The notes under the pieces: generated by a model
Databases searched by the model: none
Told to the model about the DNA's origin: nothing
What the model saw: the letters and a program-made list of their open reading frames with translations, nothing else
In this document: positions 40,033 to 64,000 of the stretch, one piece after another
Position numbering within the stretch: position 1 is the stretch's first letter
Layout of the letters: each line of letters starts with the position of its first letter
Origin: Watersipora subatra
Lineage: Eukaryota > Bryozoa > Gymnolaemata > Cheilostomatida > Watersiporidae
Assembly: GCF_963576615.1 (NCBI RefSeq)
Contig: NC_088714.1
Span: 64,178,667-64,242,666 of the forward strand
Length of the DNA: 64,000 nt
Direction of reading: 5' to 3'
Translations under genes and position numbers: made by a program

Positions 40033-40160
40033 CTCTCACAGAGAGCTCAACCGAACCAAAGTAAGGGAGCATATACTCATGCTACAGACAATACGGTTTC
40101 GGCTATTGAAACCTCATCAGTGCAGCTCAGAGCAGGCAAGGGAGACAAATCCCATTGCCA
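40033..40160 (-). mobile_element. Retrozyme-like fragment with hammerhead, minus orientation
   Basis: The reverse complement matches the 259-nt retrozyme unit at 62691-63107, from about 20 bases inside 'cccttgcc' through the ribozyme to 'gagcactctgtgag'. It faces the fragment at 40195-40290, forming a snap-back pair. Shared GAGACAAAT/ATTTGTCTC ends make the centre itself an inverted repeat. Confidence 0.75.
40081..40126 (-). ncRNA. Hammerhead ribozyme (type I), mutated stem III
   Basis: On the minus strand: stem I strand GCTGCA, core CTGATGA, stem II GGTTTCAATAGCC, GAAA, short stem III, then GTC and the returning stem I strand TGTAGC. Stem III has a C-U mismatch and a G-U pair compared with the 62798 copy, so activity may be weak. 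Confidence 0.65.
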
Positions 40161-40194: not shown

Positions 40195-40290
40195 TATATA
40201 AATACATTGGCAATGTGATTTGTCTCCCTTGCCTGCTTTGAGCTGCACTGATGAGGCTTCAATAGCCGAAACAGTAGTGTCTGTATATAT
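40195..40290 (+). mobile_element. Retrozyme-like fragment with hammerhead, plus orientation
   Basis: 'cccttgcctgctttgagctg' continues into the hammerhead and stops in a (TA)n tract right after the cleavage site. It is the inverted partner of 40033-40160. Confidence 0.7.
40242..40287 (+). ncRNA. Hammerhead ribozyme (type I), partly decayed
   Basis: GCTGCA, CTGATGA, GGCTTCAATAGCC (stem II with TCAAT loop), GAAA, then ACAGTAGTGT and C. One stem III pair is lost (G-G), and the 3' strand of stem I (TGTATA) pairs only in its first four positions. Confidence 0.6.
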
Positions 40291-40344: not shown

Positions 40345-40514
40345 TATAATTGTTTCTGAATACAAGAATTTTACTGAATACAAGAAACGCCTTCGTCAGG
40401 CCCTACGGAGCCCGCCCAATGCCAAGAACCAAGTCATGGCAATAAATACCTACGCACTGCCAGTAATAAGATATCCAGCAGGCTTAATAAAGTGGACTGA
40501 GGAAGCCGCAGACT
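40345..40514 (+). mobile_element. Non-LTR retrotransposon RT fragment (C-terminal/thumb region)
   Basis: About 56 codons include TEYKKRLRQALRS, AKNQVMAINTYALPVIRY and GLIKWTEE. 'K..AINT.A.PV.RY..G...WT.EE' is a recognisable block just after the RT palm in several LINE clades (R2/R4-like). The fragment has (TA)n tracts on both sides, so only this small piece survives. Confidence 0.65.
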
Positions 40515-45852: not shown

Positions 45853-46144
45853 TAAAATGGTTTGAAGCTCATATGACCGTATGCAAAAACACATCGAGTA
45901 GCTTAACAATAAAAGCCAGCTATATATAATACAACAATTTAATTGGTTCATGTCACAGCATTGCAAATTAAGTGCTTATTTGAATGCCTGCAGTTTGACA
46001 CAAGCTGCTTTCGTGAATTTAAACTTGCAAGCTCAGGTTTGTATAGAATTAAGTACTTCTCCCAAATGCATAAATTACAGCTTTCTTCAATACTCTCCAC
46101 TTGATGTCGTACTGGATGGACCGATCTTTAAGCTGCCATATATA

Positions 46145-47088
46145 ACTACTTAGCTCTGTTGATGTTCATTTTGATAGATTGTTGAAGCTGCTACGATGGT
46201 TGTAATATCTTTTCTTGAATGGGCCCTCTGTCAGGCCAACATATGCTTGTTTGGCAGCATCAGGTTTGTTGGTCATAACTGTAGCCTGATAGATGACAGA
46301 ACTGGACGTGCATGCATTTGGCAGCGGACATGTATTTTTGTCTCGACAGTTGCATGTTACTGTTGGCTTTTCCTTTGATAGCTGCGCTTTGTTGTTATTC
46401 GCAATAATCTGTCCAATATTCTTTACGCAGCTATAGCTAAGTCTTACATTGTTTCTATTAAATATCGAATAAAGCTTGTGATCTTTGGGAAATTCTTTAC
46501 TCAGAGCTCTGAAGAAAAGCTTTCCTATATTGGTGGCAACATTTTTAGAGAAAGGGGGGTTATACCAAAATATATTTCTCCTGCATTTGCTTCGGGTGTT
46601 ATGCGATGTTGTATTCTCACTAAATGTCAATTTATGATGGTATCCACTTCCATTAAGGGCTTCTTGGTGTTCTTTCGTATTTTGTCTAAATATATCTCGA
46701 TTGGATGATATTGTGGAGAGGCACAGGTTGACTGATGCTGGAATGTTTTTGATGAAGGAGGGTGGGTGGTTAGATCTTGTGTGTTTGTATCTAGGCGTAT
46801 TATTGGGCTTGCTGAAGGGTCTATATAATTCATTCTGTAGAGCTAAAGATATATCCAAAAAGTCAATGGTGCTTTTGCATCTACAGCTATTTTTAGCCCA
46901 TATCGATGGAATAATGTGTGCAGATTTTTCTTGAGCTTCTCAGTTTGTTTAGAAGTTGTTCTCCCTACGCCAAGTCCATCATTTCGGTATAATCCAAAAG
47001 TCTCTTTTGTGATCTGGTTTATCTGATGTAGCATAAAGCAGTCAACCAATTCGCATATTTCTGCACCATCATAGGAACCCATAGCCAC
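46145..47088 (-). pseudogene. Penelope-like RT C-terminus plus GIY-YIG endonuclease (copy A)
   Basis: The first frame (47088-46843) has AMGSYDGAEICELV and LYRNDGLG. The second position of the RT catalytic Y-x-D-D box is N, so the polymerase would be inactive. A one-base frameshift near 46858 leads to a second frame with ISLALQNELYRPFSKPN and TRSNHPP, typical of the region after the RT. Then come the Cys-rich CNCRDKNTCPLPNAC, VIYQATV (the GIY position), YVGLTE (YIG) and FKKRYYNH with the catalytic Arg. A TGA at about 46166 interrupts where copy B reads on. The conserved C-terminal CNLC block is displaced by a deletion also present in B. Dead copy; an old genomic retroelement. Confidence 0.85.
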
Positions 47089-47148
47089 ATCTTAATTTTT
47101 TAAGGAAGATGCAGTCTGACATCAGTCAATCTGCGCCTCTCCACAATA

Positions 47149-47910
47149 TCATCCAATCGAGATATATTTAGACAAAATACGAAAGAACACCAAGAAGCTC
47201 TTAATAGAAGTGGATACCATCATAAATTGACATTTAGTGAGAATACAACATCGCATAACACCCGAAACAAATGCAGGAGAAATATACTTTGGTATAACTC
47301 CCCTTTCTCTAAAAATGTTGGCACCAATATAGGAAAGCTTTTCTTCAGAGCTCTGAGTAAAGAATTTCCCAAAGATCACAAGCTTTATTCGATATTTAAT
47401 AGAAACAATGTAAGACTTAGCTATAGCTGCATGAAGAATATTGGACAGATTATTGCGAATAACAACAAAGCGCAGCTATCAAAGGTAAAGCCAACAGTAA
47501 CATGCAACTGTCGAGACAAAGATACATATCCGCTGCCAAATGCATGCACGTCCAGTTCTGTCATCTATCAGGCTACAGTTATGACCAACAAACCTGATGC
47601 TGCCAAACAAACATATGTTGGCCTGACAGAGGGCCCATTCAAGAAAATATATTACAACCATCGTAGCAGCTTCAACAATCCATCAAAACAAATGTCAACA
47701 GAGCTAAGTAGTTATATATGGCAGCTTAAAGATCGGTCCATCCAGTACGACATCAAGTGGAGAGTATTGAAGAAAGCTGTAATTTATGCATTTGGGAGAA
47801 GTACTTAATTCTATACAAACCTGAGCTTGCAAGTTTAAACTCACGAAACGAGCTTGTTTCAAAGTGCAGGCATTCGAATAAGCACTTGATTTGCAATGCT
47901 GTGACATGAA
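47149..47910 (+). pseudogene. GIY-YIG endonuclease region of Penelope-like copy B
   Basis: Post-RT linker residues (TFSENTTSHNTRNKC, PFSKNVGTNIGKLFF) are followed by the Cys-rich CNCRDKDTYPLPNAC, where one Cys of copy A is Tyr. Then come VIYQATV, YVGLTE, and FKKIYYNH, where the catalytic Arg of the GIY-YIG fold is Ile. The frame continues [13 protein letters not shown] to [12 protein letters not shown] and a stop. The family's C-terminal block ([28 protein letters not shown]) follows in another frame up to 47908. Both the missing Arg and the frame break mean the enzyme is not functional. Confidence 0.85.
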
Positions 47911-48004
47911 CCAATTAAATTGTTGTATTATATATAGCTGGCTTTTATCGTTAAGCTACTGGATGTGTTTTTGCATACAGTCATATGAGCTTCAAATCAT
48001 TTTA

Positions 48005-48051
48005 GTTTTACCTGATGAATGATAACGACCATGAAACTTTAAGTAGTAAAC
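48005..48051 (+). ncRNA. Hammerhead ribozyme in Penelope-like copy B
   Basis: Stem I strand GTTTTAC (48005-48011), CTGATGA (48012-48018), stem II region 48019-48032, GAAA (48033-48036), short stem III and GTA with cleavage expected after 48045, then GTAAAC. It lies about 100 bp after the end of the coding region, as in Penelope-like pseudo-LTRs that carry hammerheads. Confidence 0.68.
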
Positions 48052-48146
48052 AGTTTTAAAAGTTTTCAGTTCTTAATATATTTTATGTAAATGCTCTATT
48101 TTAATATTGAGCACTCTCTTCTAGTGAACTGCAACCTTCTTCATCA

Positions 48147-62631: not shown

Positions 62632-62639
<8 letters not shown>
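60411..62639. other. Sulfotransferase 3' flank and intergenic DNA
   Basis: AT-rich. 61300-61600 is a low-complexity 'aatttaatttt' patch. A 76-codon minus ORF (60996-61226) has no motif. No exon or RNA gene supported. Confidence 0.4.

Positions 62640-62688
<49 letters not shown>
62640..62688. repeat. (TA)n microsatellite
   Basis: A pure TA run abutting the left end of the retrozyme repeat. Confidence 0.95.
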
Positions 62689-62690
<2 letters not shown>

Positions 62691-62797
62691 TGCCAGCACA
62701 TTGACTTTCTTAAAGTCTGCGAGGCAACTTAGTTGTTTCGTGGCAGGAAGTCAACTCTCATGGGTAATGGGATTTGTGTCCCTTGCCTAAGCTCTGA

Positions 62798-62843
62798 GCT
62801 GCACTGATGAGACTTCAATAGCCGAAACAGTACTGTCTGTAGC
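62798..62843 (+). ncRNA. Hammerhead ribozyme 1 of the retrozyme
   Basis: Stem I strands GCTGCA (62798-62803) and TGTAGC (62838-62843) pair over six positions with one G-U. CTGATGA is at 62804-62810. Stem II is GACTTCAATAGCC, with one mismatch. GAAA is at 62824-62827. Stem III is ACAG/CTGT with loop TA. The cleavage triplet is GTC, with the cut after 62837. All core bases of the family are present. Confidence 0.85.
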
Positions 62844-63056
62844 ATGAGTATATGCTCCCTCACTTCGGTTTGGTTGAGCACTCTGTGAGAGGTGCGGCAC
62901 TATTAGCCTTTGTGCAAAGCTCATCACTTTTGTGATTTGAGCACTCTGATGCCAGCACATTGACTTTCTTAAAGTCTGCGAGGCAACTTAGTTGTTTCGT
63001 GGCAGGAAGTCAACTCTCATGGGTAATGGGATTTGTGTCCTTTGCCTAAGCTCTGA

Positions 63057-63102
63057 GCTGCACTGATGAGGCTTCAATAGCTGAAACAGTACTGTCTGTA
63101 GC
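63057..63102 (+). ncRNA. Hammerhead ribozyme 2 of the retrozyme
   Basis: The same fold as ribozyme 1: GCTGCA (63057-63062), CTGATGA (63063-63069), stem II GGCTTCAATAGCT (closed by a G-U pair), GAAA (63083-63086), stem III ACAG/CTGT, GTC with the cut after 63096, and TGTAGC (63097-63102). The repeat ends about five bases later in (TA)n. Confidence 0.85.
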
Positions 63103-63151
63103 ATGAGTATATATATATATATAAAATTTATTCATGTAAAACCTTAGATAA

Positions 63152-63216
63152 AAAACAACTTCATTACTATTAGTTTCATGTCTGTTACACAGACAATCAT
63201 CAGATAAAATTGTTTT
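63152..63216 (-). ncRNA. Hammerhead ribozyme in Penelope-like copy C
   Basis: Minus strand: stem I AAAACAATTTTAT (63216-63204) pairs over all 13 positions (three G-U) with ATGAAGTTGTTTT (63164-63152). CTGATGA is at 63203-63197. Stem II is TGTCTG/CAGACA with loop TGTAA. GAAA follows, then short stem III ACT/AGT and cleavage triplet GTA. All core bases are present; it is the best-paired hammerhead in the window. Confidence 0.85.
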
Positions 63217-63294
63217 GGTCCAACTGAGTTATATATGTAAGAGAGGTGTAATTACTATAACGACTGATAGCTATGTAATTGCATTTCGTAGTGT

Positions 63295-63831
63295 TTATTT
63301 AGCAGAATGTCGGCATGTGGAAGCTAGCTCGTTACGCTTGTTGAGTGAGCTCATTTCTGGCTTTGTGAGGATGATGTACTTTTCTGATAAGCACAGGTTA
63401 CAACGCTTGGTGGCTGGGTCGTATGGCCTTGCGTGTTGAACGATTTTCCATTTAATTGTATACGGTGTGTTCAGGCCTTTTAGCTGCCAGATGTAGTTAC
63501 TAAGCTCTGTGGCAGATTGCTTGTCCTGGTGCCTGAAAGATGATATGTGGCCGCTGAATCGTGTCTTAAAGGTATTTTCTGTGAGGCCAATATAACTTTC
63601 TATAGGTTTGCTACCGTCGTCTGCGGTGACTACAGCTTGGTAGATGAGCGACTTGCTAAGACAGTTTCCTTCGAGAGGGCATTCATTTAGTGCGCGACAG
63701 TTGCATGTATTGTTGTTTGCTGGGTGCGTCGAGGCGTTGTTCAAAAGCTTCTTATTGTGATTGTTGATGGTTTGTTTGATGTTAGGCATGCAGCTGTAGC
63801 CAATCTTTGTGTTGTTTCTATTAAATAGCTT
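63295..63831 (-). CDS. GIY-YIG endonuclease domain of Penelope-like copy C (N-terminus missing)
   Basis: An open frame of about 179 codons. Order: LFNRNNTKIGYSC, the Cys-rich CNCRALNECPLEGNC, LIYQAVV (GIY position), YIGLTE (YIG), FKTRFSGH with the catalytic Arg, SATELSNYIWQLK with a conserved Glu, and the C-terminal CNLCLSEKYIILTKPEM plus RNELASTCRHS. All expected blocks are intact, including the CNLC block broken in A and B. The RT half is absent because the copy is cut at the head-to-head junction, so it cannot move on its own. Confidence 0.85.
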   Translation of the reverse strand, partial: KLFNRNNTKIGYSCMPNIKQTINNHNKKLLNNASTHPANNNTCNCRALNECPLEGNCLSKSLIYQAVVTADDGSKPIESYIGLTENTFKTRFSGHISSFRHQDKQSATELSNYIWQLKGLNTPYTIKWKIVQHARPYDPATKRCNLCLSEKYIILTKPEMSSLNKRNELASTCRHSAK

Positions 63832-64000
63832 CACAAAGATTGGCTACAGCTGCATGCTTAACATCAAACAAACCATCAACAATCACAATAAGAAGCTTTT
63901 GAACAACGCCTCGACGCACCCAGCAAACAACAATACATGCAACTGTCGCGCACCAAATGAATGCCCTCTCGAAGGAAACTGCCTTAGCAAGTCGCTCATC
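63832..64000 (+). mobile_element. Penelope-like element, copy C' (inverted partner, runs off the window)
   Basis: From 'cacaaagattggctacagc' the sequence is the near-exact inverse of copy C, encoding TKIGYSCMLNIKQ, CNCRAPNECPLEGNC and LSKSLI. It differs by a few bases (for example P for L in the Cys-rich block). A 21-base spacer (63812-63832) separates the arms. It continues beyond the window. Confidence 0.9.

Follow-up and report, generated by a model that had tools for sequence, protein, structure and literature searches.

Two questions surround the retrozymes of animals: what moves them, for which the literature offers Penelope-like elements (PLEs) or LINEs (PMC7229834, in the portion consulted), and whether the mover copies circular RNA. 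The same portion defines the non-LTR retrozymes of animals, names tRNA ligase as the likely closer of their circles and calls PLEs strong candidates for the partner and LINEs possible ones; retrozyme repeats are described elsewhere, in an excerpt, as lacking any conserved motif from which their partner might be recognised (PMC7761336). It has also been suggested that retrozymes derive from PLEs by reduction (PMC11722881, in excerpt). The locus studied here, near the end of a 64,000-nucleotide stretch of contig NC_088714.1 of the bryozoan Watersipora subatra (the whole stretch is hereafter the window), sets a retrozyme tail to tail against a PLE end and bears on both questions.

The retrozyme insertion spans 62690..63112 of the forward strand and, by comparison of its repeats, holds 1.63 units with a 259-nt period; its final TATAT (5 nt) is indistinguishable from the TA flank. 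A first, complete unit of 259 nt (62691..62949, forward strand; unit position 1 is 62691) is followed by a second, partial unit of 163 nt (62950..63112, same strand). The direct repeat, 62691-62853 and 62950-63112, measures 163 nt in each copy at 98% identity and 259 nt spacing, and the whole element, laid out as 163+96+163 nt, is enclosed by two (TA)n tracts, the 5' tract lying upstream at 62636..62688 and the 3' tract, at 63108..63123, being common to the retrozyme and the PLE end. No stop-to-stop ORF of at least 90 aa was found over 62690-63112, and since the unit is without an ORF the retrozyme is not itself a PLE and is at most the passenger of one.

The preliminary description had reported two direct copies, each with a type I hammerhead core, matching stem I, a short stem III and a GTC cut site, with the cuts one repeat period apart, and all of this can be read in the sequence. 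Copy 1 lies at 62792..62848 and copy 2 at 63051..63107, both on the forward strand, with predicted cuts after 62837 and after 63096, 259 nt apart. Each has CTGATGA, GAAA and GTC, a stem I of GCTGCA/TGTAGC, an outer stem CTC/GAG plus a stem II of four pairs, and a stem III of three pairs (ACA/UGU) with loop GUAC, set inside the self-complementary ACAGUACUGU; hammerheads with a weak helix III have been tied to action as dimers (PMC7229834, same portion). Stem II reads GACU/AGCC in copy 1, with an A.C mismatch (62812/62822), and GGCU/AGCU, with a G.U pair, in copy 2, GGCU/AGCC being the commonest form among the matches listed genome-wide. It is plausible that a transcript would release a monomer able to circularise, as had been proposed; the window locus, because its upstream ribozyme has the stem II mismatch, may release it poorly. 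The name retrozyme dimer given earlier is a loose one for an element that is only a partial dimer, and the covariance-model check then suggested returned 0 Rfam matches in the window at curated cut-offs, Hammerhead_HH9 appearing below threshold on both copies (18.1 and 19.4 bits; cut-off 52).

The suggested count of genomic copies, made over 783,720,542 bases in 239 contigs, yielded 1009+983 = 1992 ribozyme cores with at most 2 mismatches and 0 in the reversed control, so the hammerhead core is not a matter of chance. With its type I hammerhead, short dispersed tandem repeats, these 1992 cores and no ORF, the element was assigned to the right class: it can be counted, as a new and non-autonomous representative, among the non-LTR retrozymes already known from animals. 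Set beside the descriptions in the available portion of PMC7229834, it resembles the metazoan non-LTR retrozymes of coral, mussel and axolotl in its type I hammerhead, in its unit size (170-400 nt in those), in occurring as dimers to multimers, in a GC content below 50% (46.7% in this unit) and in encoding no proteins, and the amphibian ones in its weak helix III, whereas it differs from metazoan retrozymes in sequence and in its bryozoan host. No paper pairing bryozoans with hammerhead ribozymes was found among the open PMC papers searched. With the plant LTR retrozymes, as that portion describes them (PMC7229834), it shares non-autonomy and, as inferred here, ribozyme-processed circular RNA; these differ in their type III hammerhead, their LTRs and their circles of 600-800 nt, and their mover is thought to be Gypsy elements.

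The core search listed 100 of its 1992 places, which were grouped into 70 clusters, with 40 loci taken at full length and 12 later ones in short form. The 50 insertions counted below come from the 40 full-length loci together with further loci, chosen by a ribozyme-core pattern or for their similarity to the copy in the window, leaving out L044 (a duplicate of L043), L034 (the same place as L006), L004 (the array of L003), L009-L016 (the places of L017-L024) and L050:4892 (which runs off its locus); L057 and L058, taken up on other grounds, stand outside the 12 later loci. Copies are scattered across the chromosomes and range, in the fetched loci, from part-units to arrays of 7 units, the longest insertion there being 1756 nt; 18 of the 50 are shorter than one unit, 23 span one to two units and 9 at least two. 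Most are flanked by (TA)n, which hides any target site duplication of the kind, longer than 4 bp, that some metazoan retrozymes have. Within-array differences amount to 0-3 sites in 15 of the 17 arrays with at least two long units (10/205 and 32/218 sites in the remaining two) and to none among the seven units of L055, and the mean difference between arrays is 6.4% (351 pairs); each array therefore goes back to a single template or was homogenised afterwards. In the region C1:62744974-64135798 several tail-to-tail retrozyme pairs are separated by only ~10-16 nt of TA-like sequence, and some of these pairs, nearly alike at different places, look like a derived repeat of their own.

One end of the insertions is fixed. 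In 46/50 insertions the match to the unit stops on its 3' side within TATAT, at unit 160-163, and in 4/50 at 151-157; in 12/12 of the later loci it stops at unit 162-163; because the flank is also TA, the end is placed no more finely than TATAT itself (unit 159-163; 62849..62853 on the forward strand of the window), the putative start of reverse transcription. A TA run of at least 8 lies within 30 nt 3' of the insertion in 45/50 and on the 5' side in 36/50, compared with 5.7% of 30-mers drawn at random from the loci. Termination of copies at the ribozyme cut was considered and rejected, since no 3' end falls at unit 145-150 among the 50 insertions, nor among 62 with the later loci included, the nearest being that of L051 at unit 151. 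A 3'-end pattern independent of the core found 793+839 places genome-wide (reversed control 6); the first 100 listed comprise 26 internal matches and 74 ends, 65 of the latter running into a TA run of at least 8 or meeting another copy tail to tail. L057 and L058 hold four insertions, of which two end at unit 163, one at 216 and one, against non-TA sequence, at 121.

The 5' ends, in turn, are spread over the unit, and this asymmetry bears on an alternative in which recombination or circular DNA has disseminated the element as a plain satellite and the ribozyme is a relic. Near-equal units in tandem, the presence of TA 5' of insertions also (36/50) and the capacity of unequal crossing-over to even out units would all suit such a satellite, but insertions shorter than one unit (18/50) still share the same 3' point, recombination would not fix one end while freeing the other, and the copies are dispersed over chromosomes; we regard a satellite origin as very improbable.

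Within the spread of 5' ends two heaps stand out, one at unit 148-163 (9/50, expected 3.1, p 0.003; 4/12 of the later loci) and one at unit 214-222 (7/50, p 0.0016; 0/12 of the later loci), both p-values being for stretches picked after inspection. The first corresponds to about whole turns of a 259-nt circle. A PLE partner could also be kept with an uncut linear multimer as the template, the ribozyme mattering elsewhere or not at all; copies do cross the cut site unbroken, as from an uncut transcript, homogeneous arrays would yield homogeneous transcripts, and ribozyme mutants of an anole PLE left insertion in vitro unchanged (PMC11167929, in the part available). The excess of 5' ends near whole turns in both samples, and even the seven-unit array L055 with its near-identical units, speak against a linear template, which we hold to be rather doubtful.

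Immediately past the fixed end stands a hairpin. Hairpin 1, GCTC...TTGAGCACTCTG (62854..62885, forward strand; unit 164-195), starts at unit 164, one base past the mapped 3' end of the insertions, and is shared with PLE ends of this genome; hairpin 2, a second GCTC...TTGAGCACTCTG, lies at 62919..62948 on the same strand (unit 229-258). PLE 3' ends in the window and the loci carry, in an optional tail, a hairpin of the form GCTC-loop-GAGCACT. Six such tails aligned have 13 of 27 columns invariant, nine of the 13 being already required by the collecting pattern (GCTC and GAGCA). The hairpin model was built from these six PLE ends alone, among them the PLE-B tail hairpin of the window (48092..48118, forward strand); two of the tails belong to elements with a PLE ORF (L001 and the window), that of L041 matches the PLE-A 3' end (74% over 99 nt), and those of L048, L002 and L027 are PLE by architecture, not by ORF.

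On the retrozyme the model scores 16.0 bits at 62853-62885 and 15.1 bits at 62918-62948, with rough E-values of 2.0 and 3.0 over 291,842 bases on both strands, which by our own arithmetic come to ~1 in 1000 each per single unit and one strand, the two hairpins not being independent. Randomised units with the same base neighbours carried the motif in 1161 of 200000 cases, with two occurrences in 48 and one placed at unit 158-170 in 58. Plain BLAST of PLE ends against the unit gave only matches of 10-14 nt (E 0.14-0.41). Among retrozyme copies the hairpin columns vary less (p 0.0014), mostly owing to hairpin 2, the mean variation of hairpin 1 alone being 0.029 (one column at 0.30) against 0.030 in the adjoining 195-228. 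The motif is doubled in the retrozyme, and its second copy, unit 229-258, is the least variable among copies. No earlier report of such a hairpin at the start point of a retrozyme was found in the searches made of open PMC papers. A PLE-like hairpin lying directly past the fixed 3' end suggests that a PLE enzyme probably copies the RNA from there.

The PLEs of this genome bear on that suggestion through their own ends. In the window the PLE-A fragment facing the retrozyme (63124..63843, reverse strand) consists of a 3' UTR and a GIY-YIG-type ORF (63295-63843) and is the tailless arm of a head-to-head pair, of which the other arm starts at 63800..64000 (forward strand) and runs past the window in L001, ending with hairpin and tail. 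PLE-B is represented by C-terminal coding matches at 45975..46465 (reverse strand), in the tailless arm of a head-to-head pair, and at 47392..47882 (forward strand), in the arm with the tail. No Pfam family was found in these three window fragments; they are called PLE because listed homologues (120 of 690) include 1 with Pfam GIY-YIG (PF01541) and 10 with PF26215, and partly from what we take to be features of PLE endonucleases. Head-to-head PLE pairs were seen at window 45975-48146 and at L001 1923-3390.

Ten hairpin tails were checked for an inverted partner, which was clear in five and weak in L047 (69%, E 0.086), no convincing one being found for the rest of the ten. In the five clear pairs the match of the tailless arm extends to within 2-10 nt of the hairpin, which the other arm traverses. 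PLE-B ends occur at 46+63 places genome-wide (reversed control 3), and of the 100 listed 42 run into the hairpin, 50 do not and 8 are in other contexts; 9/10 listed head-to-head pairs, the window's included, have one arm of each kind, although two alike pairs on C4 among these nine may be one duplication. The arrangement looks as though each strand had a start site of its own. For an anole PLE the available part of PMC11167929 describes a protein that cuts and extends both strands, a start at a stem-loop inside its own RNA and a tail lying between two start sites, and the available part of PMC3846280 reports pLTRs in inverted orientation, one of which bears a tail. The architecture of these PLEs is thus already known; its placement at the start point of a retrozyme appeared in none of the open PMC papers found by the searches.

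PLE-A ends were found at 86+74 places (reversed control 1); those listed, 100 in all, include 85 with a TA run of at least 6, 1 that runs into the hairpin and 5 from other contexts. PLE-A, like the retrozyme, seldom shows the tail, and from the end counts of both families PLEs enter the same (TA)n type of target as the retrozyme. CTGANGA lies 73-97 nt 5' of the hairpin in 6/8 PLE-type tails viewed, followed in 5 by GAAAC, a hammerhead-like motif and candidate ribozyme; the retrozyme core sits 50 nt before its hairpin.

Measured as a PLE passenger, the retrozyme has an inner 3' end just before a PLE-type hairpin and an AT-rich target, but the optional tail that PLEs show at some 3' ends is present in none of the 62 sampled insertions and at none of the 8 places of a further pattern search spanning part of the possible ends. 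Two candidates for a tail-bearing retrozyme were rejected: L057:746-948 ends at unit 216 but is a fold-back palindrome, and the second retrozyme copy of the window (40033..40159, reverse strand; unit 73-201) ends near unit 201, not against TA. The latter has a head-to-head partner at 40205..40285 (forward strand; unit 69-151), and an internal fragment of an R2-like LINE follows the pair at 40361-40507. Head-to-head retrozyme pairs were likewise rejected as proof of priming on both strands on the evidence of L005 and L035, where the TA between the arms means that two separate insertions suffice. In comparison with PLEs as described in the available parts of PMC11167929 and PMC3846280, the retrozyme shares the hairpin just past the inner 3' end, a hammerhead-like motif upstream, an AT-rich target and tandem and inverted copies, and differs in its 259-nt length, its lack of reverse transcriptase and endonuclease and the want of tail-bearing ends among the insertions sampled. 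A host gene mobilised in trans by pLTR sequences has also been described (PMC3846280, same part).

The R2-like LINE of this genome is the other candidate mover, inserting into (TA)n, in which case the PLE-like hairpin would be chance or a trace of ancestry. Its reverse transcriptase matches Pfam RVT_1, with R2 as the closest PDB proteins, and its C-terminus is presumably a restriction-like endonuclease, the LINE itself being presumably akin to R4/Dong. At L022:2560-5001 and L023:1-1918 it has a long reading frame, preceded by a partial copy in inverted orientation. The LINE 3' end recurs at 2392 genomic places (reversed control 0), with a TA run of at least 6 in 95/100 places listed, so that by sequence it looks like a (TA)n-targeting element; LINE matches occur in 14/47 loci against 4/47 for PLE coding matches (the LINE query being longer), and in L008, L022 and L046 the 3' ends of a LINE and a retrozyme face each other over a single short TA tract. 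The available part of PMC4640811 describes R2-superfamily LINEs with microsatellite targets, which the retrozyme resembles in its (TA)n-type target, whereas those LINEs are autonomous and have no ribozyme unit. Yet the (TA)n target is common to PLE-A, PLE-B and the LINE, and being shared by both PLE families it does not decide between the two kinds of mover; the 3' end of the LINE is unlike that of the retrozyme, with only a 7-nt match to the unit, none of the hairpin-model matches over the 291,842 bases is a sense-strand LINE 3' end, and no ribozyme was seen at that end. We therefore consider a LINE an unlikely mover and a PLE a probable one.

Put together, the locus is probably a non-LTR retrozyme whose circular RNA a PLE enzyme copies into (TA)n from a start next to the hairpin. 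Copy number, the fixed 3' end, the varying 5' end, the (TA)n flanks, the uniform arrays and the place of the hairpin are observed in the DNA, and from sequence of this kind we infer cleavage, a circle, a PLE enzyme and recognition through the hairpin. An array would be transcribed and its transcript cut by the hammerheads into 259-nt units, which a host ligase, by analogy with published retrozymes, would close into circles. A PLE reverse transcriptase-endonuclease would recognise the GCUC/GAGC hairpin, cut a (TA)n tract and begin the cDNA at UAUAU just 5' of the hairpin, ~16 nt beyond the sealed cut. Copying round the circle would last from part of a turn to several turns, with frequent stops near whole turns, and TA microhomology may seal the 5' side.

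A wider reading, to which we give not quite an even chance as a whole, is that animal retrozymes are stripped-down PLE start modules, holding ribozyme, start site and hairpin on one circle. PLE target-primed reverse transcription round such a circle would then give head-to-tail arrays with a broken number of units directly in (TA)n, the 5' ends near whole turns would reflect the polymerase meeting its own start, and the weaker heap at 214-222 might mark bound protein or RNA structure.

Beyond the metazoan retrozymes described in the available portion of PMC7229834, the bryozoan element has a start point that is fixed and is accompanied by a PLE-like hairpin: within one genome, the start point of a retrozyme is marked by a hairpin resembling the one that the PLEs there carry. 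What is new is a start-site module common to the retrozyme and the PLEs, which makes the question of the partner testable in any genome that holds both retrozymes and PLEs. If this reading is true, it would tie ribozyme-made circular RNA to PLE transposition.
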